Part shown: piece after piece, positions 22,770 to 40,349 of the stretch
Layout: each line of letters starts with the position of its first letter
Numbering within the stretch: position 1 is the stretch's first letter
Assembly (NCBI RefSeq): GCF_020176715.1
Contig: NZ_JAIVMF010000008.1
Span: 1 to 64,000 of the forward strand
Direction: 5' to 3'
Length of the DNA: 64,000 bases
Origin: Stappia stellulata
GTDB lineage: Bacteria > Pseudomonadota > Alphaproteobacteria > Rhizobiales > Stappiaceae
Made by a program: the position numbers and the translations under genes
The notes under the pieces: model-generated
The model's input: only the letters and a program-made list of their open reading frames with translations
What the model was told of the DNA's origin: nothing
Databases searched by the model: none

Positions 22770-24641
22770 ATGATTCGCTTGCTGATCTTCATCGCCCTTG
22801 TGTTCGTCGTCGCGGTCGGTTCCGCGTGGATTGCCGACAAGCCGGGCATCATCACCCTCGACTGGCAGGGCTATCAGATCGAGACCGGCGTGATGACCGC
22901 CGCGGTCGCGCTGATCGGCCTGCTGGCGCTCGGCATCATCGTGTGGAACGTCGCGCTTTTCATCCTGCGCACGCCCGATCATGTCGGCAGCTTCTTCCGC
23001 CGCCGGCGCAAGGACCGCGGCTATGACGCCATGTCCAAGGGCCTTTTGGCGCTGGGCGTGGGCGACGCCGCCGGCGCCGGGCGCTACGGGGCGGAAGCTG
23101 CGAAGCTTCTCTCCGGGGAACCGGCGACCCAGCTCCTGCTTGCGCAATCCGCGCAGCTCGACGGCCGCCACGAGGAGGCGCGGTCGCGCTTCGAGGCGAT
23201 GCTGGATGATCCGGCGCTGCGTCCCGTCGGCCTGCACGGCCTCTACATCGAGGCGGAGCGGCTGAACGAGCCGGTGGCCGCGCGCCACTATGCCGAGGAA
23301 GCCGCGAAGCTGATGCCGGGGCTCGACTGGGCCGGACGCGCGGTGCTCGGCTATCAGGCGGTCAGCGGCGACTGGGCGGACGCGATCAAGACGCTGGAGA
23401 AGAACTACGCCTTCAAGCGCGTCGACAAGAAGACCTTCCGCCGCCACAAGGCGGTGCTCCTGACGGCCCAGGCGCAGGAGCTGGAGGATCGCGATCCCGA
23501 TGCGGCGCGCCAGAAGGCGAACGAGGCGCACGGTCTGGCGCCCGCGCTGGTGCCGGCGGCGATCCTGGCGGCGCGTCTCGCCACACGGCGCGGCGATATC
23601 CGCAAGGCGATGAAGATCGTCGAGACCACCTGGAAGCTCACCCCGCATCCCGAGCTTGCCGACGCCTACGCCCATGCCCGCAACGGCGATTCGGCGCAGG
23701 ACCGGCTGAAGCGGGTAAAAGCGCTCGCCGCGCTTCGCGCCCACAATGCGGAAGGCGCGCTGGCGCTGGCGCGGGCCGCCATCGAGGCGAACGACTGGGA
23801 TCTGGCGCGCGCGCAGATGAAGGCGGCACTTCGCCTGGAGCCGACCCAGCGCGCGTTCCTGATGATGGCCGATCTGGAGGAGCGCCAGCATGGCGATCGC
23901 GGTCGGGTGCGCGAATGGCTCGCCCGCGCGGTGCGTGCGCCCGCCGATCCGGCCTGGGTGGCCGATGGCGTCGTCAGCGAGACGTGGTCGCCGGTCTCGC
24001 CGGTCGACGGACGGCTGGATGCCTTCGTCTGGACCACGCCGCCGGCAACGCTCGACCATCATGACGATCCGCTGGAGGCGCTCGACGACGCGCTGATGGA
24101 GGCGCTGCCGGCCGCTCCCGCGCATCTGGAAGCCGCGCCGCTGGAGCGCAAGCCGGATCCGTCCGAGCCCCTCGCCCCCTCGCCCGTGCCGCAGCCCGCC
24201 GCCTCAGCGCCTGCGACAGATGCTGCGCCGGCAAAAGATCCGGCAGCTCCCGACACAGCGAAAGCCGAGACGGCCAAGACCGAACCGGTGCAAACGGGCC
24301 TGGCCAAGGACGACGCGCCCAAGGCAGACGCTGCGAAGACGGACGCCGCCAAGCCTGCGGCGCAAGACGCGGGCGCTTCGGCCTCGGGAACTGCGGACGC
24401 CAAGGCGTCGGGACCGGAGACGGGGGCCACGTCTTCCGCCAAGCCGAGCGCGCCGGATGCAAGCCCCAAACCGGCGGCGAAGCCGGAGGCAAAGGCGGAC
24501 GCCAAGGCCGGCGACACGCGCAAGGACGATCTTTCGCGGCCGATCGAGTTTCCGCTGAAGCATATGCCGGACGATCCCGGCCCGGACGACGAGCCGGAGG
24601 ACGCGCGCCAGAAGAAGCCGGGTTTCCGCTTCTTCAACTGA
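22770..24641 (+). CDS. HemY N-terminal domain / TPR membrane protein
   Basis: 623-aa protein with two N-terminal membrane helices (about 1-20 and 41-65) forming the HemY_N domain (IITLDWQGYQIET is typical), followed by TPR-like helices (about 90-400) and an Ala/Pro/Lys-rich tail (about 440-600) ending in PGFRFFN. Despite the name it is not the Gram-positive protoporphyrinogen oxidase; this family is a TPR scaffold of unclear function conserved beside hemC-hemD and mic60. It follows the mitofilin gene by 91 bases. Confidence 0.88.
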   Translation: MIRLLIFIALVFVVAVGSAWIADKPGIITLDWQGYQIETGVMTAAVALIGLLALGIIVWNVALFILRTPDHVGSFFRRRRKDRGYDAMSKGLLALGVGDAAGAGRYGAEAAKLLSGEPATQLLLAQSAQLDGRHEEARSRFEAMLDDPALRPVGLHGLYIEAERLNEPVAARHYAEEAAKLMPGLDWAGRAVLGYQAVSGDWADAIKTLEKNYAFKRVDKKTFRRHKAVLLTAQAQELEDRDPDAARQKANEAHGLAPALVPAAILAARLATRRGDIRKAMKIVETTWKLTPHPELADAYAHARNGDSAQDRLKRVKALAALRAHNAEGALALARAAIEANDWDLARAQMKAALRLEPTQRAFLMMADLEERQHGDRGRVREWLARAVRAPADPAWVADGVVSETWSPVSPVDGRLDAFVWTTPPATLDHHDDPLEALDDALMEALPAAPAHLEAAPLERKPDPSEPLAPSPVPQPAASAPATDAAPAKDPAAPDTAKAETAKTEPVQTGLAKDDAPKADAAKTDAAKPAAQDAGASASGTADAKASGPETGATSSAKPSAPDASPKPAAKPEAKADAKAGDTRKDDLSRPIEFPLKHMPDDPGPDDEPEDARQKKPGFRFFN

Positions 24642-25060
24642 CGGTGCGGTGCAACGCGCCGGCCGGGGAGGCCGGCCGTTTCGATGGCAGGGACCCGAAA
24701 CGCCGATGGACGCGGGGGCCGTCGCCACGGCCTCACGTACGGGGGGTGTCCCCGCCGTGGGGCCGGGATGCGATCCGCGTCTCGACGGTCCCGACGGTCG
24801 TGCAGGTCGGGGCGGTTCGCTTGCCAAATCGCGCTGCCTTGCTGCTTTGTCCAAAAGGCGCGAGCCGGCACGCAAAGCCTCTTGCGCCGCGCCGCCCGGT
24901 CGGGTATCAAGCGGCCACCTCGCCGAACGCCTGACAGTGGCCTTGGTCGCTGTCGTGATTTACGCGAGGTCTGCCCGTCCCCTATGACCGGGACGGCAAG
25001 ACGTCCGAAGCGCTATGCTTCGGAAAAGACATACGGGACGCTCACGTCCCGGTTTGGTGC
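24642..25060. other. Intergenic stretch before tRNA-Thr
   Basis: No supported gene. A GC-rich inverted repeat (CCGGCC, spacer, GGCCGG, about 24659-24677) followed by GTTTC could end the hem transcript. The tRNA-Thr promoter must lie near the right end, but no confident -35/-10 pair was picked. Confidence 0.5.
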
Positions 25061-25136
25061 GCCGGTGTAGCTCAGTTGGTAGAGCACGTCATTCGTAATG
25101 ATGGGGTCGGCGGTTCGAGTCCGTTCACCGGCACCA
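25061..25136 (+). tRNA. tRNA-Thr(CGT)
   Basis: Complete cloverleaf: acceptor stem GCCGGTG/CACCGGC, D-arm GCTCAGTTGGTAGAGC, anticodon arm CGTCATTCGTAATGATG with CGT, T-loop GGTTCGAGTCC, discriminator A and encoded CCA. It reads ACG codons. An AT-rich two-gene segment begins 5 bases beyond its 3' end. Confidence 0.97.
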
Positions 25137-25141
25137 TTTTC

Positions 25142-26059
25142 TTATTCTTTGTCACCTTCTTTTTCGGCGGTTTCTATAGCTTCTGACAATATTTCTTTAA
25201 GTTCCTCTTTCGTCAATTCTTTGGCAGCCTTTCCTGTGGCTTTAAGAGACACGCTGTGCGCTCCGCTTTTTATAGATTCAACAAGTGATGGATTACTTTT
25301 CAGGTTTTTAATAGCTTCGATAAGTAATTTTTTTCTCGTTCTGTCACGAACTGGATCTTTTCGAGAATCTTGGCGGAATAGTGCTCTCATCCTTTCGGAT
25401 ATATCGCCGGTTTCATCGATCAGGTGTTTAACGTGAGATAAAACACTTTCAATAGTATCTCCTGTGTCATCTACCTTAAACTCGGCCCAGCCTAACTGAT
25501 CTCCTATAGATTTGATGCTCGAGCTGATATTGCTTTGTAATTTGAGAAGATGCTCCGATATTTCCTTTGATGCTTCTTCAAATCTTGCAGAAAACTCCCG
25601 GCCTTCTTCCTCAAGGAATATCTTTAAGAGCTCATTTGGATGAAGTGGCCGATTACGACTGCCGTCGCGAATACAGTAGATGCCCTTTGCTGTCGCGTGT
25701 GGCTTGTTTTTACTTGGGGGAACATATATTCTCAGAAATGGAATTGAATTTGTATTTTCAGAAAAAATATCTAAAGAAACAGGCGGTGTGCAACTAATTG
25801 CTTTATTCATTATCTGTAAAAGGATGCTATCGCTCAAATCGCATCCAATTATTTTGCCATATTGGGAGCCATCATTCCTTTTTTCTTCGTCTACACCAAC
25901 AAGAATGCTCCCGCCAGTTTCAGTGTTTGCGAATGCAGCCAAGTCTTCTGAACTTATACCTTCGGGCTTGCGCTTATAGTCAACGAATTGGTTCTCGCCA
26001 CTCTCCAATAGATCTCGCGATATTTTGGTAGTGGTCTTGTAGCTCTTCGAAATTGCCAC
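25142..26059 (-). CDS. AlbA_2 (Schlafen-like) domain protein, AT-rich
   Basis: 305-aa protein. The AlbA_2 domain (about 20-150) is visible from ENQFVDYKRKPEG (nucleic-acid-binding opening), AFANTETGGSILVGVDEE (family turn) and GIYCIRDGSRNRPL. The rest (about 165-305) is helical, Lys/Glu-rich and probably coiled coil. No helicase or ATPase domain follows. Codon and base use are clearly AT-rich (sampled 60-base lines run about 30-50% G+C), unlike the surrounding GC-rich genes, so it was probably acquired. Its stop lies almost at the 3' end of tRNA-Thr. It could be a defence or regulatory gene; no activity can be assigned. Confidence 0.75.
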   Translation of the reverse strand: MAISKSYKTTTKISRDLLESGENQFVDYKRKPEGISSEDLAAFANTETGGSILVGVDEEKRNDGSQYGKIIGCDLSDSILLQIMNKAISCTPPVSLDIFSENTNSIPFLRIYVPPSKNKPHATAKGIYCIRDGSRNRPLHPNELLKIFLEEEGREFSARFEEASKEISEHLLKLQSNISSSIKSIGDQLGWAEFKVDDTGDTIESVLSHVKHLIDETGDISERMRALFRQDSRKDPVRDRTRKKLLIEAIKNLKSNPSLVESIKSGAHSVSLKATGKAAKELTKEELKEILSEAIETAEKEGDKE

Positions 26060-31667: not shown

Positions 31668-32105
31668 TCAGGGCGCGCGGTCGATCAACTGCGTGAGCGC
31701 GGCTTTCAGGATGTCCGCGTTCTCCGGCCCCAGCGCGTCGAGCAGGCGCGTCTGGTGGTCCATCGCGCGGGCAATCAAGGAATCGACGCGCTGCTCGCCC
31801 GCAGGCGTCAGGCGGACCCAGACCCGGCGCCGGTCGTCCGTGTCGGCGTGGCGCTCGAGCAGCCCTTGCTCGACGAGCTTGTCGACGGTCTTGGAGATCG
31901 CCGGCTGGTTGGCGAGGCAACTGCGCGCCAGTTCTCCGACGGTCAGGCCCTGGTCGGTCCCCTTCAGCGACGCAAGAACCCGCCAGACGGCGATGGACAC
32001 GCCCTGCGCGCGCACCTGCTGGTGAAACTCCGCGCTGGCGACGCTGGAGGCGCGGGCCAGCAGGTAGAGCAGATAGCCATCGACGAAGCGCCCCGACCCG
32101 CTCAT
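31668..32105 (-). CDS. MarR-family transcriptional regulator
   Basis: 145-aa winged-helix regulator. The HTH lies around LTVGELARSCLANQPAISKTVDKLVEQGLL, followed by the wing with the family's D-x-R-D-R-R pattern (DTDDRRRVWVRLT). Helices at both ends form the dimer interface. The start codon overlaps the stop of the flavin reductase gene (ATGA, 32102-32105), so the two are co-translated. Divergent to the catabolic operon at 32755, it is the natural candidate for its ligand-responsive repressor (compare NicR or HpaR). Confidence 0.9.
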   Translation of the reverse strand: MSGSGRFVDGYLLYLLARASSVASAEFHQQVRAQGVSIAVWRVLASLKGTDQGLTVGELARSCLANQPAISKTVDKLVEQGLLERHADTDDRRRVWVRLTPAGEQRVDSLIARAMDHQTRLLDALGPENADILKAALTQLIDRAP

Positions 32106-32593
32106 GGCAGGGCCGGCGCGTAGCACGGCGTTGCATAGCGTCCGCCGTGGTAGAGAAGCGGCTCGCGGTCGCGGGCGTCGAAGGCTTCCACCTGTCCCAG
32201 AAAGACGATGTGGTCGCCGCCCGGGACCCGTGTCGCGTGGCTGCATTCAAAGACCGCGGTCACGCCGTCCAGGATCGGAACGCCGCCGAGGCCGGCGCGC
32301 CAGTCGACGCCTGCGAAGCGGTTCTCCACCGGCCGGGCGAAGCGGTCGGACAGGGCGCGCTGGTCGGAGGCGAGCACGTTGATCGCGTAGTGGGTCGCGC
32401 GTTCGAAGATCGCGAGATTGCGCGAGGTCCGCGCCAGGCTCCACAGCACCATCGGCGGATCGAGGGAAACGGAATTGAAGGAATTCGCCGTCAGCCCGAC
32501 CGGACGGCCGTCGCCGTCGAGCGTGGTGACGATGGTCACCCCGGTTGCGAAGCGGCCGAGCGCTGCCCGAAAATCTCGGTGGTGGGTCATCAT
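32102..32593 (-). CDS. Flavin reductase (HpaC/NtaB-type) family protein
   Basis: 163-aa FMN-binding split-barrel protein. The family opening is FRAALGRFATGVTIVTT, followed by GLTANSFNSVSLDPPMVLW (flavin-binding segment), YAINVLASDQ, and HIVFLGQVEAF near the end. Such proteins supply reduced FMN/FAD by diffusion to a partner monooxygenase. The flavoprotein at 34601 in the facing operon is the only plausible partner in the window. The ATG at 32593 (or 32590) is chosen; the open frame to 32668 would run through the AT-rich promoter region. Confidence 0.88.
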   Translation of the reverse strand: MMTHHRDFRAALGRFATGVTIVTTLDGDGRPVGLTANSFNSVSLDPPMVLWSLARTSRNLAIFERATHYAINVLASDQRALSDRFARPVENRFAGVDWRAGLGGVPILDGVTAVFECSHATRVPGGDHIVFLGQVEAFDARDREPLLYHGGRYATPCYAPALP

Positions 32594-32669
32594 GGCCTGG
32601 CCCCCTGTCTGGTCGCGGTTCCGTCTGATGGCGGGTGTCGGTTCAACTGTAAAAATATTCCTTTTCATA

Positions 32670-32683
32670 CAATAACGATATTG
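32670..32683. promoter_or_regulatory. Candidate MarR operator
   Basis: CAATAACGATATTG is an inverted repeat (CAATA, 4-base spacer, TATTG) in the AT-rich gap between the divergent flavin reductase and NicX-like genes. MarR proteins typically bind palindromes of about this size here. Additional related half-sites (ATATT, ATTGTATG) lie within 25 bases. Confidence 0.45.
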
Positions 32684-32754
32684 CTACGATCCTCCAAGTT
32701 CTTTTCGGTTCCTGCGCAAAAGCATGGCCAGGAACAACATTCGGGAGGGTGTGC

Positions 32755-33801
32755 ATGCTTGCCGATCGGATCGAGGGCAAATGGATCGTCGCCTTCGAGC
32801 GGGTGTTCGCTCTTTGCAGGGTGACGAAGGGCGAGACGGTCGCGCTCCTGTCGGAAACCCAGTCCCGCCCTCTCAACGTCCATATCGCGGAGCTTGCGCT
32901 GCAGCGCCTCGGGGCGACGGTGTTCCATATCGTGGTGCCGACGCCGCCGCAGGATGCGCCCGTGCCGGTGCGCTCCACCGGCGCCTCCGCTGCGCTCGGC
33001 GGCCAGGACGCCGCGGTCAAGGCACTTGCCGCGAGCGGGCTGGTGGTCGATCTCACCGTCGAGGGCCTTTTGCATGCGCCCGAACTCCCGCGCATCATCG
33101 CCGATGGCGCGCGGGTGCTGATGATTTCCAACGAGCATCCGGATGCCCTTGAACGGCTGTTGCCGCAGGAGCGCGACAAGGATCGGGTGCGCGACGCGGT
33201 CGCCCGTATCCGCGGCGCGTCGGCGATGACGGTAACCTCGAAAGCGGGAACCGATCTTTCCGTGGCGATGGAGGGCGCCTCCACCGTCGGGATCTGGGGC
33301 TGGTGCGACCGGCCCGGCAGCGTTGCCCACTGGCCGGCGGGCCTTGTCGTCAGTTTCCCGAAGGCCGGCAGCGTCAACGGCACGCTGGTCCTCGATGCGG
33401 GCGATGTAAACCTCACCTTCAAGCGCTATCTGGAAAGCCCGGTCCGGCTGACCATCGTCGATGACTATGTCACCGCGATCGACGGTCACGGAACGGATGT
33501 CGAGCTGACCCGGCGCTACCTGGCGGCCTGGGGCGAACGCGAGGCCTATGCGGTCAGCCACGTCGGCTTCGGCATGAACGAGGCGGCGCGCTACGAGGCG
33601 CTCGCCATGTACGACCAGCGCGAGACCAACGGCACGGAAGTCCGGGCCTATTCCGGCAACTTCCTGTTCTCCACCGGTGCCAACGAGTTCGCCGGGCGGT
33701 TCACCAAGGGACACTTCGACATTCCGGTGCGCGGCTGCACCATCTCGCTCGACGGCGAGGCGGTTGTCGTCGACGGCGAGCTGATCGAGGCGCTGCGGTG
33801 A
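32755..33801 (+). CDS. NicX-like 2,5-dihydroxypyridine 5,6-dioxygenase (M29-fold) family protein
   Basis: 348-aa protein of the aminopeptidase-T/M29 fold branch that contains NicX, the mononuclear-iron enzyme opening 2,5-dihydroxypyridine to N-formylmaleamate. The three iron ligands of Pseudomonas NicX (H265, H318, D320) have clear counterparts: H269 in SHVGFGMN and H320/D322 in KGHFDIP. Length also matches NicX (350 aa). ATG 32755 follows GGGAGG by 6 bases; an in-frame GTG at 32749 is too close. It is the first gene of a tight operon and is followed, with overlap, by a NicD-like hydrolase, which strongly supports ring-cleavage chemistry; the exact substrate is unproven. Confidence 0.82.
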   Translation: MLADRIEGKWIVAFERVFALCRVTKGETVALLSETQSRPLNVHIAELALQRLGATVFHIVVPTPPQDAPVPVRSTGASAALGGQDAAVKALAASGLVVDLTVEGLLHAPELPRIIADGARVLMISNEHPDALERLLPQERDKDRVRDAVARIRGASAMTVTSKAGTDLSVAMEGASTVGIWGWCDRPGSVAHWPAGLVVSFPKAGSVNGTLVLDAGDVNLTFKRYLESPVRLTIVDDYVTAIDGHGTDVELTRRYLAAWGEREAYAVSHVGFGMNEAARYEALAMYDQRETNGTEVRAYSGNFLFSTGANEFAGRFTKGHFDIPVRGCTISLDGEAVVVDGELIEALR

Positions 33802-34574
33802 GCGGCGGCGATCACCTGCGCGCGACGGGGGGCGCGCGCGCTGTCGTGTTCCTGCACGGGATCGGCGCGGGGGCGGAGATGTTCGCGCCGCAGATTGCCG
33901 CGCTCGGCCGCAGCTGCGACGTGATCGGCTGGAACCTGCCCGGTTACGGCGGCCACGACCTTGACGGCGAAATGACCTTCGAGGGGCTGAGCGCCGCGCT
34001 TCTCGCCTTCCTCGACCGGCTGCATCTCGCCCGGGTCGATCTGGTCGGCCATTCCATCGGCGGCATGTTGGCGCAGGCCTTCGTCGCCCGTCATCCCGAG
34101 CGCGTGCGCACGCTGGTGCTGTCGGCAACGACCGCCGCCTTCGGCAGCCGCGACGGCAGCTTCCAGAAGCAGTTCGTCGCCGAGCGGCTCGCGCCGCTCG
34201 ACGCCGGGCGCCGCATGCCTGAGCTCGCGGCGGAATTCGTGCCGGGTCTCGTCGGGTCGCGGGCAGTGCCGGAGGCCGCCGATCAGGCGCGCGCGGCAAT
34301 GTCCGGGGTGCCCGAGGCGACCTATCGCGCCGCGATCCGCTGTCTTGCCACCTTCGACGAGCGCGAGGCGCTTTCCAGAATCCCGGTGCCGGTTCTCCTG
34401 ATCGCCGGCGGCGAGGACCGCAATGCGCCCGCACCCACCATGCGGCGGATGGCGGAGAAGATCCCGGCCGCGCGTTTCGTCGAGCTTGCGGGCATCGGAC
34501 ATCTCGCGCCGCTGGAATGCCCGGACGAATTCACCGGAGAGATCCGCAGCTTCCTGAAAGACACGCCCAGATAA
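33798..34574 (+). CDS. Alpha/beta hydrolase, NicD-like (N-formylmaleamate deformylase type)
   Basis: 258-aa cytosolic alpha/beta hydrolase. The oxyanion HG motif is VVFLHGIGAG, the nucleophile elbow is GHSIGG (Ser at about residue 86), a catalytic Asp is probably in IAGGEDRNAP, and the His is in GIGHLAPLECP. In nicotinate catabolism NicD removes formate from the product of NicX, and here it directly follows the NicX homologue. The GTG start (33798) overlaps the upstream TGA (GTGA), showing tight coupling. Homology alone could equally indicate a lactonase or C-C hydrolase; context favours a deformylase. Confidence 0.8.
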   Translation: MSGGDHLRATGGARAVVFLHGIGAGAEMFAPQIAALGRSCDVIGWNLPGYGGHDLDGEMTFEGLSAALLAFLDRLHLARVDLVGHSIGGMLAQAFVARHPERVRTLVLSATTAAFGSRDGSFQKQFVAERLAPLDAGRRMPELAAEFVPGLVGSRAVPEAADQARAAMSGVPEATYRAAIRCLATFDEREALSRIPVPVLLIAGGEDRNAPAPTMRRMAEKIPAARFVELAGIGHLAPLECPDEFTGEIRSFLKDTPR

Positions 34575-34600
34575 GAAAACCGCCAGAGAGGACCCGCTTC

Positions 34601-35872
34601 ATGACCATCGCCGACCTTGATGCAACGGACATCGACCGGCCGATCTTCGATCCGGCGGCGTTCCGTCTCACCGAACAGGAAGCCGAATTGACGAGCCTGG
34701 CGCGCCGGGTCGCCCGGACGCGGTTCGCGCCGCGGGCGGAGCAATACGACCGCGAGGCGACCTTTCCGACGCAGAATTATCGCGACATGCATGAGGCCGG
34801 TCTGCTCGGCATCTGCGTGCCGAAGGAAAACGGCGGCCACGGCGCGCCGTTTCGCGCCTACATGATGACGGCGGCGGAGATCGGGCGCTATTGCGGCGCC
34901 ACCGCGCTGACCTGGAACATGCATGTCTGCTCCTGCCTGTGGACCGGCGCGCTGACCGACGATCTCGACATGAGCGCGGCCGAGCGCGAGCTCCACCTGG
35001 AGCGCAGGGCGCGTCACTATGCGCGTATTCTCGACGACGGGGCGATCTACTCGCAGCCGTTTTCCGAAGGCGGCGCGGCGGCGGCGGGCGCTGCCCCCTT
35101 TTCCACCAGCGCGAAACAGGTCGACGGCGGCTGGCTGATCAACGGCAAGAAGATCTTCGCCTCGCTGTCCGGTCATGCGGACTATTACGGCATTCTCTGC
35201 GGCGAGATGAAGGAAGGCGAGAAGCCCTCGCGCCGCGACACGATGTATATCGCCGTGCCGGCCCGGGCCGAGGGCGTGGAGGTGGTCGGCGACTGGGATC
35301 CGCTCGGCATGCGCGGGACGGTGTCGCGCACGCTGATCTTCAAGGACGTCTTCGTGCCGGACGACGAGCAGCTGATGCCGCGCGGGGTCTACTACCAAGC
35401 GGCAAGCCGCTGGCCGCACATGTTCATGACGCTGTCGCCGACCTACATGGGCATCGCCCAGGCGGCCTATGATTTCACCATCAAGTATCTGCGCGGCGAA
35501 TGGCCCGGCCTGCCCCCGGTCAAGCGGCGGATGTTCCCGACGAAGCAGATGGGCGTCGCCCAGATGCAGCTGATGCTGGAACAGACCAAGGCGCTGTGGT
35601 TCCAGGCGATCACCGAAGCCGGTCCCGATCCCTCGCGCGAGCAGATGATGCGCGCCTGGGCGGCGCATTATACCGTGATGGAAAACGCCAACGAGATCTG
35701 CCAGCTTGCCGTGCGCACCTGCGGAGGACAGTCGATGCTGAAGACCCTGCCCCTGGAGCGGCTTTACCGCGACAGCCGCTGTGGCTCGCTGATGCTGCCC
35801 TGGACGGCGGAGATCTGTCTCGACAGAATTGGCCGCGAAAGCCTGTATCTGCCGGGAGAAAGCGACGCGTGA
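34601..35872 (+). CDS. Acyl-CoA dehydrogenase-fold flavoprotein, possibly a monooxygenase
   Basis: 423-aa flavoprotein. The N-terminal helical domain (LTEQEAELTSLARRVARTRF), central beta domain (YSQPFSEGG, WLINGKKIFASLSGHADYY, GMRGTVSRTLIF) and C-terminal helices (LYRDSR) follow the acyl-CoA dehydrogenase fold. The usual catalytic Glu in the YEGT motif is replaced: the aligned segment reads LPWT, with Pro at about residue 400, and no Glu is seen at the alternative isovaleryl-CoA-dehydrogenase position. That, plus a flavin reductase gene in the same cluster, suggests a reduced-flavin-dependent oxygenase (DszC/HpaB-like group) or an unusual desaturase. ATG 34601 follows AGAGAGGA. Confidence 0.78.
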   Translation: MTIADLDATDIDRPIFDPAAFRLTEQEAELTSLARRVARTRFAPRAEQYDREATFPTQNYRDMHEAGLLGICVPKENGGHGAPFRAYMMTAAEIGRYCGATALTWNMHVCSCLWTGALTDDLDMSAAERELHLERRARHYARILDDGAIYSQPFSEGGAAAAGAAPFSTSAKQVDGGWLINGKKIFASLSGHADYYGILCGEMKEGEKPSRRDTMYIAVPARAEGVEVVGDWDPLGMRGTVSRTLIFKDVFVPDDEQLMPRGVYYQAASRWPHMFMTLSPTYMGIAQAAYDFTIKYLRGEWPGLPPVKRRMFPTKQMGVAQMQLMLEQTKALWFQAITEAGPDPSREQMMRAWAAHYTVMENANEICQLAVRTCGGQSMLKTLPLERLYRDSRCGSLMLPWTAEICLDRIGRESLYLPGESDA

Positions 35873-37407
35873 CCTCCATCGACAGCTGGATCGAAGCGCA
35901 TGCCCGCTTCACCCCCGACAAGCCGGCGGTGCTCTTCGACGGCGAGGTCCTGACCTATCGCGAGATGGCGGGGGCGGTCGGCAGGCTGGCCGGCTACCTG
36001 CGGTCCGAGCACGGGATCGGTCGCGGCGACCGGTTCGCCTATCTCGGCACCAATGCGCCGGACACGCTGGCGCTTCTGTTCGCCGCCGCCCGGCTCGGAG
36101 CCATTCTGGTTCCGCTCAACTGGCGTCTCGCGCCGCCGGAGCTTGCCCATGCGGTAACCGACAGCGGCGCGCGCCTGCTGATCCATCAGCCGGCGTTCGC
36201 CGCGGCGGTCGCCGCGATGGCGCAAGACGGCGCGCTGCCGTCTGCCATTTCCGCCGATCCGGGCGACGGCGGTCTGATCCGCATGGCCGCGGAGCATGCG
36301 CCGATCCGGCCCGAGGCAACCGCTGGAAGTGCCAGGGATGCGTTGCTTCTGGTCTATACCTCGGGCACGACCGGCCGTCCCAAGGGGGCGGTGCTGACGC
36401 AGGCGGCGGTTCAGGCCAATGCGCTCAATGCCATCCACATGCAGGGGCTGACGAGCGAGGACTCCGTCTTGACGGTGCTGCCGATGTTCCACGTCGGCGG
36501 GCTGAACATCCAGACCACCCCGGCGCTCTACGTCGGGGCGAGCGTCGTGCTGCATGACCGGTTTCACCCGGACAAGGTGCTGAAGAGCCTTGCCGCCGAC
36601 CGGCCGAGCCTGACCGTTCTGGTTCCGGCGACGCTGGCCGCGCTGCTGGCCCATCCCGGCTGGCCGGAGGCGGATCTCTCAAGTCTGCGGCTTGTCGCGA
36701 CCGGATCGTCGGATGTGCCGCATCCCTTGATGCGCGGGTTCATCGAGCGCGGGGTGCCGGTTCTCCAGGTCTATGGCGCGACGGAAACCGGCCCGGTCTC
36801 GATCTACCAGCGGCTCGACGACGCGGACGCAGAATTCGGTGCGATCGGACGCGCCGGTCTGCACACATCCGCGCGCATCACCATCGACGGACGGGAAGCA
36901 GGCGTCGGCGAGGTCGGCGAGATCGAGCTCAAGGGGCCGAATGTGACCGCCGGCTACTGGAACCGTCCCGAGGCGACGCGCGCGTGTTTTCGCGACGGCT
37001 GGTTCCGGACCGGCGATCTGGCCGAAGTCGACGACAACGGCGTCTACTGGTTTCGCGACAGGTTGAAGAACGTGATCATTTCCGGCGGCGAGAACATCTA
37101 TCCGGCGGAGATCGAGCGGGTCCTGCGCGAATTCCCGGAGGTGCGGGAAGCCGCCGTCGTGGGAGTCGACGATGCACAGTGGGGCGAAACGCCGGTCGCG
37201 GTGGTCGTGCCGCTGTCGGACGGCGGTTGCGATCCGCGCGCGCTGCTTGGACAATTCGACGGGCGACTTGCCCGCTACAAGCATCCGAAAGCCCTTGTTT
37301 TCGCAACGGCACTTCCGCGCAATGCGCTCGGCAAGATCCAACTGGATAAGGTCCGCAAAATGGCGGAGGATGCCCTTACACGCGAGACCGCACAAAAAAA
37401 AGCCTGA
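35869..37407 (+). CDS. Acyl-CoA synthetase (AMP-forming ligase)
   Basis: 512-aa ANL-superfamily ligase activating a carboxylic acid through an acyl-adenylate to its CoA thioester. Core motifs are VYTSGTTGRPKGAV (A3), YGATETGP (A5), GWFRTGDLAEVDDNGVYW (A7-A8), KNVIISGGENIYPAEIE, and the catalytic Lys in RNALGKIQLDKV. The GTG start overlaps the stop of the flavoprotein gene (GTGA, 35869-35872). Its presence implies that the imported compound, or a ring-opened product, is handled as a CoA thioester, which differs from the known CoA-free nicotinate pathway. Confidence 0.9.
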   Translation: MTSIDSWIEAHARFTPDKPAVLFDGEVLTYREMAGAVGRLAGYLRSEHGIGRGDRFAYLGTNAPDTLALLFAAARLGAILVPLNWRLAPPELAHAVTDSGARLLIHQPAFAAAVAAMAQDGALPSAISADPGDGGLIRMAAEHAPIRPEATAGSARDALLLVYTSGTTGRPKGAVLTQAAVQANALNAIHMQGLTSEDSVLTVLPMFHVGGLNIQTTPALYVGASVVLHDRFHPDKVLKSLAADRPSLTVLVPATLAALLAHPGWPEADLSSLRLVATGSSDVPHPLMRGFIERGVPVLQVYGATETGPVSIYQRLDDADAEFGAIGRAGLHTSARITIDGREAGVGEVGEIELKGPNVTAGYWNRPEATRACFRDGWFRTGDLAEVDDNGVYWFRDRLKNVIISGGENIYPAEIERVLREFPEVREAAVVGVDDAQWGETPVAVVVPLSDGGCDPRALLGQFDGRLARYKHPKALVFATALPRNALGKIQLDKVRKMAEDALTRETAQKKA

Positions 37408-37436
37408 CAAATCCAGGCAAGCAGAGGGGATTACTC

Positions 37437-38465
37437 ATGAGAAAGCTTTTCGGCGTCCTGGCAACCCTGGCCACCATCGGGGGGGCGGTTGTCGGCACGG
37501 CCCTGCCGGCCTCGGCGGAAACCACCTTGCGCGTTTCCAACTGGCTGCCGCCGTCGCATCCGATCGTGCGCGATATCTTGGCCCCCTGGGGCGAGCAGGT
37601 GAGCGAGGCCACCGACGGCCGGGTGACGGTGGAGATCATGACCTCGCCGATCGGCAAGCCGCCGGCCCAGTTCGACCTGATCCGCTCCGGCGCCGCCGAT
37701 GTCGGCTATGGCGTTCACGGCTATACGCCGGGCCGGTTCAAGCTGACGCCGATCGTCGAGGGGCCGTTCCTCTCCGACAGCGCCGAAGCGCTCTCGGTCG
37801 CCTACTGGCGGGTGCAGGAGGCCATGCTCGAGGCGGCCGACGAGCACAATGGCGTCAAGCTGCTGACCGTCTTCACCCACGGCCCGGGCATGATCTACAC
37901 CACCGACACGCCGGTCTCCTCGGTCTCCGATCTCGCGGGCCTGAAGATGCGCATCGGCGGCGGCGTGGTTGCCAAGATCGCCGAGCGGCTCGGCATGGTC
38001 GGCGTGCAGGCGCCCTCGCCGCAGGTCTATGAGATCCTCGCCAACGGCGTTGCCGACGGCATCCTGTTTCCGGCCGAATCCGTTCCCTTCTTCCGCATCG
38101 ACGAGGTGGTGCGCAATGGCGTTTCCGTGCCGGGCGGGCTCTACAACACCTCCTTCTTCGTGGTCATGAACCGGCGCACCTGGGACGGGCTGTCGGAGGA
38201 AGACAAGGCCGCCATCGACAGCGTTTCGGGCGAAGCCATGGCGCGGCTCGCGGGCCAGGCCTGGGATGCGGCGGATGCGGCCGGCACCAAGGTGATGAGC
38301 GACAAGGGCGTTGCCCTTTCGCAGGCCGATGCGGCGATGACCGCCGAACTTGAGGAAGAGCTGGCCGGCATCGAGCAGGGCTTCCTCGACGCCGCCGCCA
38401 AGAGCGGCGTCGACGGCGCGGCCGCGCTGGAAATGCTCAGGGCCGAGATCGCCAAGGCGCAATGA
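37437..38465 (+). CDS. TRAP transporter solute-binding protein (DctP family)
   Basis: 342-aa periplasmic binding protein. A signal peptide ends near residue 27 (LPASAET), followed by TTLRVSNWLPPSHP and the DctP fold with the substrate-carboxylate Arg region (LAGLKMRIGGG) and the family's GVADGILFPAES. The IGGG segment replaces the RxxG-type motif of C4-dicarboxylate binders, so the ligand is probably a different organic acid. It is followed with overlap by both membrane subunits and placed behind four catabolic genes, so the substrate is presumably that of the pathway. Confidence 0.92.
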   Translation: MRKLFGVLATLATIGGAVVGTALPASAETTLRVSNWLPPSHPIVRDILAPWGEQVSEATDGRVTVEIMTSPIGKPPAQFDLIRSGAADVGYGVHGYTPGRFKLTPIVEGPFLSDSAEALSVAYWRVQEAMLEAADEHNGVKLLTVFTHGPGMIYTTDTPVSSVSDLAGLKMRIGGGVVAKIAERLGMVGVQAPSPQVYEILANGVADGILFPAESVPFFRIDEVVRNGVSVPGGLYNTSFFVVMNRRTWDGLSEEDKAAIDSVSGEAMARLAGQAWDAADAAGTKVMSDKGVALSQADAAMTAELEEELAGIEQGFLDAAAKSGVDGAAALEMLRAEIAKAQ

Positions 38466-38962
38466 CGGGACTGCGTTCCAGCGACGGCGCGGGCGGCGGC
38501 CTGCGTCGCCTCGTCGGGGCGGCGGGCCTTGTGCTGCGCCTTGCCGCCTCCCTGCTGCTGTTGACCATGATGATCGTCACCTTCGTCGACGTGCTGGGGC
38601 GCGAGGTCTTCTCCGCGCCCCTGCCGGGAGCCTATGAATTGACCGAGGTGCTTCTCGCGCTGGTGATCTTCGTCGGGCTTCCGATCGCCACGGCGCGGCG
38701 CGAGCACGTCTCGGTCGACCTGCTGGTCGCCCGCCTGCCGGGCCCGCTGCGGCGCGGGTTCGCGGTGCTTGCGGCGGTGATTACGGCGCTGGTTCTCATG
38801 GTGCTGGCGTGGCGTCTGTCCGTCAGCGCCAGCGACTTCACGGCCTATGGCGATGCGACGGTCTATCTCGGCGTTCCGCTCGGCCCGGTGGCCGCGGCCA
38901 TGGCGGGGTTCACGGCGATCGCCGCGGTGGTCGCCGTCGTCGTCGTCTTCCGGCGCGACTGA
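38462..38962 (+). CDS. TRAP transporter small membrane subunit (DctQ family)
   Basis: 166-aa protein with four membrane helices typical of DctQ. The conserved stretch IVTFVDVLGREVFSAPLPGAYELTE, followed by ATARREHVSVDLL, identifies the family. The start codon overlaps the DctP stop (ATGA, 38462-38465). It pairs with the large subunit encoded 94 bases downstream. Confidence 0.9.
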   Translation: MTGLRSSDGAGGGLRRLVGAAGLVLRLAASLLLLTMMIVTFVDVLGREVFSAPLPGAYELTEVLLALVIFVGLPIATARREHVSVDLLVARLPGPLRRGFAVLAAVITALVLMVLAWRLSVSASDFTAYGDATVYLGVPLGPVAAAMAGFTAIAAVVAVVVVFRRD

Positions 38963-39056
38963 GCGCGGCCCGTCCCGTCCCGTCTCCGGCGCCGCCGCCG
39001 GACCCTGCCCCTCCCGCACCGGCTTGCGGTGTGTCTGCGACTTGGAAACTGGCGTC

Positions 39057-40349
39057 ATGGAAACCTGGTTGCCCGGCCTCCTGATCCTTATCGTGGTGAT
39101 GTTCGCCGGCGTTCCCATCGCCATGGCGATGGCGGCGGTCGGCGGTCTCGGCCTCGCCGCGATGCTCGGCATCGGCCCGGCGCTTGCCATCGTCGGCCAG
39201 ACGACCTTCGACACCGGCCTGTCCTATTCGCTCTCCGTGGTGCCGCTCTTCGTGCTGATGGGAAATCTGGTGACGCGGGCGGGCCTGTCGGACGAACTCT
39301 ATGCCGCCTGCCATGCCTGGCTCGGCCACCGCCGGGGCGGGCTGGCGATGGCGACGGCGGTCGCCTGCGGCGGCTTTTCGGCCGTTTGCGGCTCGTCGCT
39401 TGCCACCGCCGCCACCATGGGCAAGGTGGCGCTGCCGCAGATGCGCCGCTACCGCTACGACGACGGGCTGGCGAGCGGCGTCATCGCTGCCGGCGGCACG
39501 CTTGGCATTCTCATTCCGCCGAGCGTCATTCTCGTTCTTTACGGGGTCACGGCGCAGCAGGACATCGCGCGGCTCTTCATCGCCGGCATCGTGCCCGGCA
39601 TTCTCGGCATCCTGGGATATATGGCGGCGGTGCGCATCACCTGCTGGCGCAATCCGGCCGCCGGACCGCCGGCCGAGCGCATGCCCTATGCCGCCCGTTT
39701 CAAGGCGCTTTGGGGCGTGTCCGGGATCGTCGGACTGTTCGTTCTGGTGATCGGGGGCATCTACACCGGCGCCTTCACCGCGACCGAGGCGGCCGGCATC
39801 GGCGCCAGCGGCGCCTTCGTCATCGCCCTTTTCCGCGGTCGGCTGACGCTGCGCAGCCTGCTGGAAACGCTCGCCGATACCGCCGCCACGACGACCATGA
39901 TGTTCATGGTGTTGATTGGCGCGCTGATCTTTTCCAATTTCGTCAATATCGCCGGCCTGCCGTCGGCGCTTGCCGGCTTCGCGCGCGCCTCCGAGCTTCC
40001 CGCACCGGTGATCCTCGGATGCATCCTGCTGGTCTATCTCTGTCTCGGCATGGTGCTGGAAAGCCTGTCCATGGTGCTCCTGACCGTGCCGATCTTCGCG
40101 CCGGTGATGGCAGCGCTCGGCTACGACCTGGTGTGGTTCGGCATCGTCGTCGTCGTGGTCACCGAAATCAGCCTGATCACACCGCCGGTGGGGTTGAATG
40201 TCTTCGTGCTGAAATCCGTTCTGCCGGATGTGCCGCTTTCGACGATCTTTCGCGGCGTGCTGCCGTTCGTGGCGGCGGATATCGTCCGGCTGGCGCTCAT
40301 CGTCGTGGTGCCCGGGCTGGTGCTCTTCCTGCCCGACCTGATGCGCTAG
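39057..40349 (+). CDS. TRAP transporter large permease subunit (DctM family)
   Basis: 430-aa membrane protein with about 12 helices forming the sodium-driven core of the TRAP system. Markers are VPLFVLMGNLVTRAGL, SAVCGSSLATAATMGKVALPQM, GTLGILIPPSVILVLYG, LGMVLESLSMVLLTVPIFAP and ITPPVGLNVFVLK. The start METWLPG at 39057 is the first Met in line with the family. It is the last gene of the NicX-like operon; no clear terminator was found in the AT-richer gap to the next gene. Confidence 0.93.
   Translation: METWLPGLLILIVVMFAGVPIAMAMAAVGGLGLAAMLGIGPALAIVGQTTFDTGLSYSLSVVPLFVLMGNLVTRAGLSDELYAACHAWLGHRRGGLAMATAVACGGFSAVCGSSLATAATMGKVALPQMRRYRYDDGLASGVIAAGGTLGILIPPSVILVLYGVTAQQDIARLFIAGIVPGILGILGYMAAVRITCWRNPAAGPPAERMPYAARFKALWGVSGIVGLFVLVIGGIYTGAFTATEAAGIGASGAFVIALFRGRLTLRSLLETLADTAATTTMMFMVLIGALIFSNFVNIAGLPSALAGFARASELPAPVILGCILLVYLCLGMVLESLSMVLLTVPIFAPVMAALGYDLVWFGIVVVVVTEISLITPPVGLNVFVLKSVLPDVPLSTIFRGVLPFVAADIVRLALIVVVPGLVLFLPDLMR

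Follow-up and report, generated by a model that had tools for sequence, protein, structure and literature searches.

A NicX-like gene cluster in Stappia stellulata and a possible route from a benzo-fused N-heteroaromatic acid to anthranilate

Introduction

Which ring does a NicX-like enzyme open when its gene is surrounded by genes other than those of nicotinate degradation? The question is raised by a cluster of nine genes at positions 31668-40349 of a 64,000-nucleotide stretch of Stappia stellulata DNA (contig NZ_JAIVMF010000008.1 of assembly GCF_020176715.1, hereafter the window). One of them, on the plus strand at 32749..33801, encodes a relative of NicX, the 2,5-dihydroxypyridine 5,6-dioxygenase of Pseudomonas putida KT2440, and a proposed non-haem Fe(II) ring-cleavage dioxygenase. 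A sequence-only reading of this DNA saw in the cluster a pyridine-type pathway, a framing that is probably wrong. Our analyses tilt modestly towards a MarR-controlled module for uptake and ring opening that funnels a benzo-fused N-heteroaromatic carboxylic acid to anthranilate (2-aminobenzoate). We infer all of its reactions, its regulation, the direction of flux and the substrate, and support is drawn from the NicX fold, the intact iron site, the altered substrate residues, the conserved gene set and the coupling to a marker of anthranilate breakdown.

Results

That the window protein is an iron-dependent enzyme of the NicX fold is well supported. Neither Pfam nor NCBIfam assigned it to a family at E<=0.001, and its sole sequence match in the PDB below E 0.01 was NicX itself (7cn3, 217 bits). 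The predicted model (mean pLDDT, the predicted local distance difference test, of 90) had the same structure as top match in Foldseek (E 9e-43, TM score 0.89), the M29 aminopeptidases PepS/AmpT being far weaker by fold (E 6e-13 and weaker, TM 0.55-0.63). An M29 peptidase identity, which the sequence-only reading had held up as the finding that could overturn it, was rejected because the fold match to NicX is far ahead of those aminopeptidases.

According to the passages available from the structural work on NicX (PMC7910607), the iron is held by H265, S302, H318 and D320, the last positioned by R293, while L104 and H105 guide the substrate and E308 lies beside H105; E177 and H189 hold the C2 oxygen, as stated for the product, and the E177A mutant keeps 2.7% of activity. 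We compared these positions in an alignment of 92 rows, 79 of module type and 13 of nic type, the groups being defined by identity to the window protein and some module genes, having been fetched twice, being counted twice. The four iron-binding residues and R293 are invariant in both groups (79/79 and 13/13); the earlier statement that all three iron ligands are present was right about their conservation and wrong about their number, as NicX has four and all four are there. The substrate site is another matter. E177 and E308 are Glu in 13/13 nic-type rows versus 0/79 module-type rows. Position 177 is occupied in the latter by Val (47), Thr (11), Asn (8), Gly (5), Ile (4, including the window protein), Ser (3) or Ala (1), and position 308 mostly by Phe (40, the window protein among them), Val (12) or Tyr (11). 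His is found at position 105 in all 79 module rows but in only four of the 13 nic-type rows, and at position 189 in 72 of the 79. Since E177 and E308 are never Glu in the module clade, 2,5-dihydroxypyridine appears unlikely as a substrate of the NicX-like enzyme.

Judged from their sequences, the NicX-like proteins form a clade separate from nic-type NicX. A tree was built from 63 rows, with a cut at 93% identity and with the groups here defined by E177 itself. Its nic (12 rows) and module (51 rows) sets are split by a branch with a value of 100 in the Shimodaira-Hasegawa-like approximate likelihood ratio test (SH-aLRT), in a quick search for which the program warns of long branches meeting at precisely this split. 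The window protein resembles NicX in fold, length, iron ligands, R293, L104/H105 and H189, and departs from it in its clade, its 36-39% identity, the replacement of E177 and E308 and its gene neighbours. No earlier description of the clade was found among the literature matches listed, whose coverage leaves most subscription journals outside.

A pyridine-acid route would begin with the import and activation of a monocyclic pyridine carboxylate; after hydroxylation, the NicX homologue would open the ring, and deformylation would follow. The NicX fold with its complete iron site and the retention of H105 and H189 in the module rows fit this scheme, yet E177 is missing from all 79 of these rows, the genome holds only distant relatives of NicB, NicC, NicE and NicF, and the anthranilate link described below would be left unexplained; we regard it as improbable. 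A whole-genome search with the nic proteins of Azospirillum lipoferum (L051) returned best matches of 31% for NicC, 26% for NicE, 36% for NicF and 29-36% for NicB, NicA not being searched separately. Because these are only distant relatives, a nic operon split between this cluster and a nicotinate upper pathway elsewhere in the genome was rejected, and the view of a catabolic-type cluster with a NicX-fold enzyme that is not such an operon was upheld. The alpha/beta hydrolase (33798..34574, plus strand; Pfam Abhydrolase_1 2.7e-27), a proposed amide/formyl hydrolase, had been called NicD-like, a name that does not suit it: it shares 22% identity (E 8e-4) with the hydrolase from a genuine nic cluster, and its best curated models belong to the PcaD enol-lactonase group, under their cut-off. 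With differing substrate residues, a distant hydrolase and a genome context that leads to anthranilate, the idea of a pyridine-carboxylate route with a true NicD was not borne out. What survives of the undescribed route once suggested, without the pyridine framing, is a module and a clade of NicX-fold enzymes that stand apart from nicotinate degradation.

The gene neighbourhoods point the same way. The nic/pic clusters for nicotinate and picolinate, such as that of A. lipoferum, are similar in their general logic, with MarR, a hydroxylase, a NicX-fold enzyme and an alpha/beta hydrolase; the window cluster differs by an acyl-CoA dehydrogenase (ACAD)-fold flavoprotein and a CoA ligase in place of NicA/B/C, by uptake through a tripartite ATP-independent periplasmic (TRAP) transporter and by lacking an amidase or maleate isomerase gene. 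We examined 11 nic-type loci of 4 kb each, from the 15 nic-type genomes introduced below, naming the genes by reference to L051. NicE and NicF homologues stand beside NicX in 7/11 and a NicC homologue in 2/11, and none of the three was found in the module loci compared alongside; two loci (L080, L081) are nic-type by sequence only, having no NicE, NicF or NicC homologue nearby. Homarine and other N-methylpyridine acids were considered since close relatives are marine, and were set aside because the matches listed gave no gene link and the genome context pointed elsewhere.

Relatives of the NicX-like gene turned up at 47 loci when the genome collection was scanned, and all 14 genomes of the window's genus carry the gene. 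Within 8 kb of it we counted an ACAD gene in 42 loci, the ligase and the hydrolase in 33 each, MarR in 21, the TRAP solute-binding protein DctP in 20 and the flavin reductase in 19, using score limits of our own choice and contigs some of which end early. With the first three at such frequencies, the association of NicX-like, ACAD, hydrolase and ligase genes exceeds chance. A branch called type B, about 51% identical, occurs on Aminobacter and Ensifer plasmids and in genomes of families f4 and f17; it combines the NicX-like, ACAD and hydrolase genes with a glutamine-synthetase-family protein and a flavin reductase, and lacks the ligase. Most type B copies read also have a TetR regulator and an APC permease, and certain clusters hold a gentisate-dioxygenase-like cupin, a fumarylacetoacetase-family protein and a nitrilase-family hydrolase. 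These type B modules (L048, L049, L050, L088, L101) may represent a version of the acid route that handles amines. In two contigs of gammaproteobacterial metagenome-assembled genomes (L025 5507-16442 and L043 3435-14100), a glycolysis operon contains NicX-like, ACAD and ligase genes, with phosphoglycerate kinase on one side of them and pyruvate kinase on the other; the domains were verified in L025, whose gene clusters recur in identical order in L043.

Where would the opened ring go? As a marker of the 2-aminobenzoyl-CoA pathway we took the enoyl-CoA hydratase PRK08258, scored above its curated cut-off in a sample of 398 genomes of the phylum, a NicX-like match being counted at E<=1e-40 and assigned to the module type above 49% identity; from the handles listed, the two scans were taken as one set of 398, with the best few candidates of each genome scored. 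The marker is present in 67/398 genomes and a NicX-like match in 34, of which 19 are of module type and 15 of nic type only. All 19 module genomes carry the marker, versus 48/379 non-module genomes (Fisher p 2e-16, genomes being treated as independent though they are not) and 8/15 nic-type genomes (p 0.001, with the same treatment). It lies 7-13 kb from the NicX-like gene in 9/19 module genomes (six in family f3, two in f17, one in f43), compared with 0/8 of the nic-type genomes that have it, six of which hold the two on different contigs so that the distance is undefined.

Families f3 and f4 are tentatively regarded as relatives of Bradyrhizobium and Rhizobium. In family f3 (G121, G450, G469) the genes after the module form a complete 2-aminobenzoyl-CoA cluster, namely a bifunctional hydroxylase/reductase of about 780 residues, PRK08258, a short-chain dehydrogenase/reductase (SDR), MarR, a benzoate-type CoA ligase and a Rid protein. 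Such a cluster adjoins the type B module in G475 and G473 (f17), and in G317 (f43) about 13 kb separate it from the module; G128 (f50) has a 2-aminobenzoate-CoA-ligase-like gene at a distance of about 7 kb from its module, with PRK08258 on a different contig. In the genome of the window the cluster is found on contig C1 (L102 7035-15157), with ligase, hydratase, Rid, SDR and MarR genes and a bifunctional hydroxylase/reductase of 779 residues that scores above the PRK08255 cut-off. We take this fused PRK08255 form to be 2-aminobenzoyl-CoA monooxygenase/reductase. Passages related to that enzyme occur in PMC3534580 and PMC6221969, and the portion available of the latter calls a 2-aminobenzoyl-CoA cluster vital for anthranilate breakdown during indole degradation. 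Anthranilate as the end point of the route is fairly well supported.

The NCBI name of PRK08255 refers to salicylyl-CoA, which raises a different lower pathway through salicylyl-CoA and gentisate, the opened ring then not being a benzo-fused N-ring. The gentisate-dioxygenase-like and fumarylacetoacetase-family genes beside certain type B modules would agree with it. Against this, a Rid-family protein and a 2-aminobenzoate-type ligase, which would fit an amino group, are found in 7/7 clusters read (G000, G121, G450, G469, G475, G473, G317), and the available part of PMC6221969 also describes a route from indole that passes by way of anthranilate to gentisate. We consider the salicylate branch very unlikely. 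It could also be argued that the marker and the module meet by coincidence, versatile catabolic genomes simply holding both without a common pathway. Nic-type genomes are indeed enriched for the marker, so that a shared lifestyle accounts for part of the link, and the two genes were not seen close in 10/19 module genomes; the difference between 19/19 and 8/15 and the short distances in nine genomes of three families, with none in the nic-type genomes, make pure coincidence quite unlikely.

The remaining enzymes are encoded on the plus strand, after the hydrolase. The ACAD-fold flavoprotein (34601..35872, likely start 34601; Pfam ACAD domains) has Thr where SCAD has its catalytic Glu, a position that we take to be E368 in SCAD and E376 in MCAD. 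Among 64 rows of this family the motif was found in 58 and Glu in only 1/58 (L003), the stretch missing in the other six. The absence of this Glu, together with the existence of type B modules that have no ligase, speaks against a canonical acyl-CoA dehydrogenase for beta-oxidation. The best fold matches of its model (mean pLDDT 85) are 5gj7 and 5z8t, the latter titled a flavin-containing monooxygenase; ordinary acyl-CoA dehydrogenases are almost equal in fold score, and the TdsC-indole complex ranked tenth. ACAD-like proteins are listed among indole oxidisers in passages of PMC6221969. We propose that the ACAD-fold protein may act as a group D-type flavin monooxygenase fed by the adjacent reductase. 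This short flavin reductase of HpaC/HsaB type (32102..32593, minus strand, likely start 32593 or 32590; Pfam Flavin_Reduct 1.6e-43) reached 204 bits against the NCBIfam model of p-hydroxyphenylacetate hydroxylase reductase, under its cut-off of 340, and is likely the supplier of reduced flavin.

The AMP-forming acyl-CoA ligase (35869..37407, likely GTG start at 35869; Pfam AMP-binding 2e-78) precedes the TRAP genes, which encode the solute-binding protein DctP (37437..38465; Pfam DctP), the small permease DctQ (38462..38962; Pfam DctQ 1.2e-24) and the large permease DctM (39069..40349, start 39057 or 39069; Pfam DctM 1.1e-92 and NCBIfam dctM above its cut-off). The closest solved chain to DctP is 4p56 (308 bits), with 4pgn/4pgp weaker (91 bits); we take the ligand of the former to be mandelate and those of the latter to be indole acids. 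Indole acids are among the known ligands of TRAP binding proteins in the accessible text of PMC5812351.

All nine genes foreseen by the sequence-only reading were present, with the Pfam domains found for the divergent MarR and flavin reductase, the ACAD-fold flavoprotein, the ligase and the full TRAP transporter. Seven plus-strand genes, in the order NicX-like, hydrolase, ACAD-fold flavoprotein, ligase, DctP, DctQ and DctM, diverge from two minus-strand genes, the flavin reductase and a MarR-family regulator (31668..32105, likely start 32105; Pfam MarR_2 3e-14). The NicX-like gene begins with GTG or with the ATG at 32755, and overlaps of 4 bases join NicX-like/hydrolase, ACAD/ligase, DctP/DctQ and flavin reductase/MarR. 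An alignment of the window with 12 close loci outlined a conserved intergenic core at 32657..32688 as a proposed promoter and MarR operator. The window copy of this core contains CAATA-N4-TATTG, whose second half deviates in several relatives; it is a plausible candidate operator.

Discussion

How could these genes lead to anthranilate? The TRAP transporter would import a benzo-fused N-heteroaromatic acid, which the AMP-forming ligase would convert to its CoA thioester; the ACAD-fold flavoprotein, with flavin supplied by the reductase, would oxygenate the carbon next to the N-CH unit, possibly losing the carboxyl group, and leave a ring with the unit N-CH=C(OH), for example indoxyl. In that ring the CH-C(OH) bond would be cleaved by the NicX-like Fe(II) dioxygenase, just as NicX acts on 2,5-dihydroxypyridine, to an N-formyl acid such as N-formylanthranilate, the hydrolase would split this into formate and anthranilate, and the 2-aminobenzoyl-CoA pathway would then degrade the anthranilate. 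The order of uptake, activation, ring opening and hydrolysis, already put forward by the sequence-only reading, would hold in this scheme.

An acid substrate would explain why a TRAP transporter and a CoA ligase are in the cluster, the genome context pointing to anthranilate implies a benzo-fused ring, and indole-3-carboxylate would be the simplest fit. NicC oxygenates 6-hydroxynicotinate with loss of the carboxyl group, and an analogous step on indole-3-carboxylate would give indoxyl. If the bond pattern of NicX (C(OH)-CH next to nitrogen) is applied to a benzo-fused ring, indoxyl would give N-formylanthranilate. It is tempting to hypothesize that indoxyl, formed from an indole acid by the CoA ligase and an ACAD-fold hydroxylase, is split directly to N-formylanthranilate with the isatin step bypassed, an idea that we put forward only tentatively and that may well prove mistaken; such a route would omit the isatin step of the 1953 proposal for indole breakdown. 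A quinolone branch starts from another bicyclic ring, a 4-quinolone or kynurenate-type acid, with cleavage of 3-hydroxy-4-quinolone and anthranilate reached via 2-aminophenylglyoxylate. It would require an extra oxidative decarboxylation for which the cluster has no obvious gene and would leave the ligase without a clear role, although 3-hydroxy-4-quinolone has the N-CH=C(OH) unit and could end in anthranilate, and quinaldine breakdown via anthranilate and CoA esters is known from passages of PMC3534580; we hold this branch to be rather unlikely.

Several observations weigh against a module that leads a benzo-fused acid to anthranilate. Nic-type genomes too are enriched for PRK08258 (8/15), the genomes are not independent, and the contrast within the window's family is only 22/22 genomes with a module-type gene versus 48/65 without. 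Module and anthranilate cluster stand on different contigs in the window's genome, closeness to the marker was not seen in more than half of the module genomes, as said, and the NCBI name of PRK08255 leaves some room for salicylate as the end product. The hydrolase is only 22% identical to its nic-cluster counterpart; type B has a glutamine-synthetase-like protein in place of the ligase, and no flavin reductase lies within 8 kb in 28/47 loci, certain of them short contigs, so the steps of the route cannot all be universal. The placement of L025 and L043 in a glycolysis operon is not explained by anthranilate breakdown, and in the available passages of PMC9871250 the N-formylanthranilate of other indole degraders is proposed to arise from isatin via other genes.

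Known indole and auxin systems share parts of the cluster. The iif/ipo-dho indole clusters have a flavin oxygenase with a partner and the anthranilate end that is proposed here, whereas a NicX-fold enzyme, CoA ligase and TRAP transporter are not mentioned in the passages available (PMC12538310). In the part of PMC12633357 at hand, the iad auxin cluster has MarR control, the AMP-forming acyl-CoA synthetase IadF and an anthranilate end point, but its pathway begins with the Rieske oxygenase IadDE. No Rieske domain was found by Pfam among the nine cluster proteins, the rest of the genome not being searched for iac/iad genes, and a known iac/iad cluster was discarded as the identity of ours on that ground. 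TdaE, an ACAD-like flavoprotein dioxygenase that oxygenates a cyclic carboxyl-CoA ester whose product loses CO2, is biosynthetic, unlike the ACAD-fold protein, which we liken to it by reaction and not by sequence, from what the accessible text gives (PMC8283759).

Because the clade always co-occurs with anthranilate breakdown genes in the sampled genomes, our data suggest that its NicX-like enzyme opens indole- or quinoline-like rings rather than pyridines. If tied to anthranilate breakdown, this sister clade, with the same iron site and altered substrate residues, would bring bicyclic rings within the range of the NicX dioxygenase class, and the label 'peptidase M29' on members in four plasmid records would need correcting. 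Should the substrate be an indole acid, the module would be a further bacterial sink for auxin-like signals in sea and soil, and if the step from indoxyl to N-formylanthranilate is true, marine Stappiaceae and many other bacteria would share a widespread sink for indole acids.

Some loci hold additional genes. In L089 (9479-16800; G076, of the window's genus) a second, divergent NicX-like gene (about 50%) has a TRAP transporter of its own and, besides a hydrolase and a small protein, a PRK06126-type FAD monooxygenase. Modules of both type A and type B (L032, L038, L092, L095, L096, L101) repeatedly have an FAD monooxygenase nearby, which in L038 is of PRK07538 type. A homoprotocatechuate cluster (HpaB, HpaD) adjoins the module in L038 and is partly common to L032 and L033; we left it out of the interpretation because it was not seen as a general feature. 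Finally, the G+C content of the window dips to 0.57 at 24001-26000 (0.61 in the next 2 kb), compared with about 0.66-0.71 nearby.

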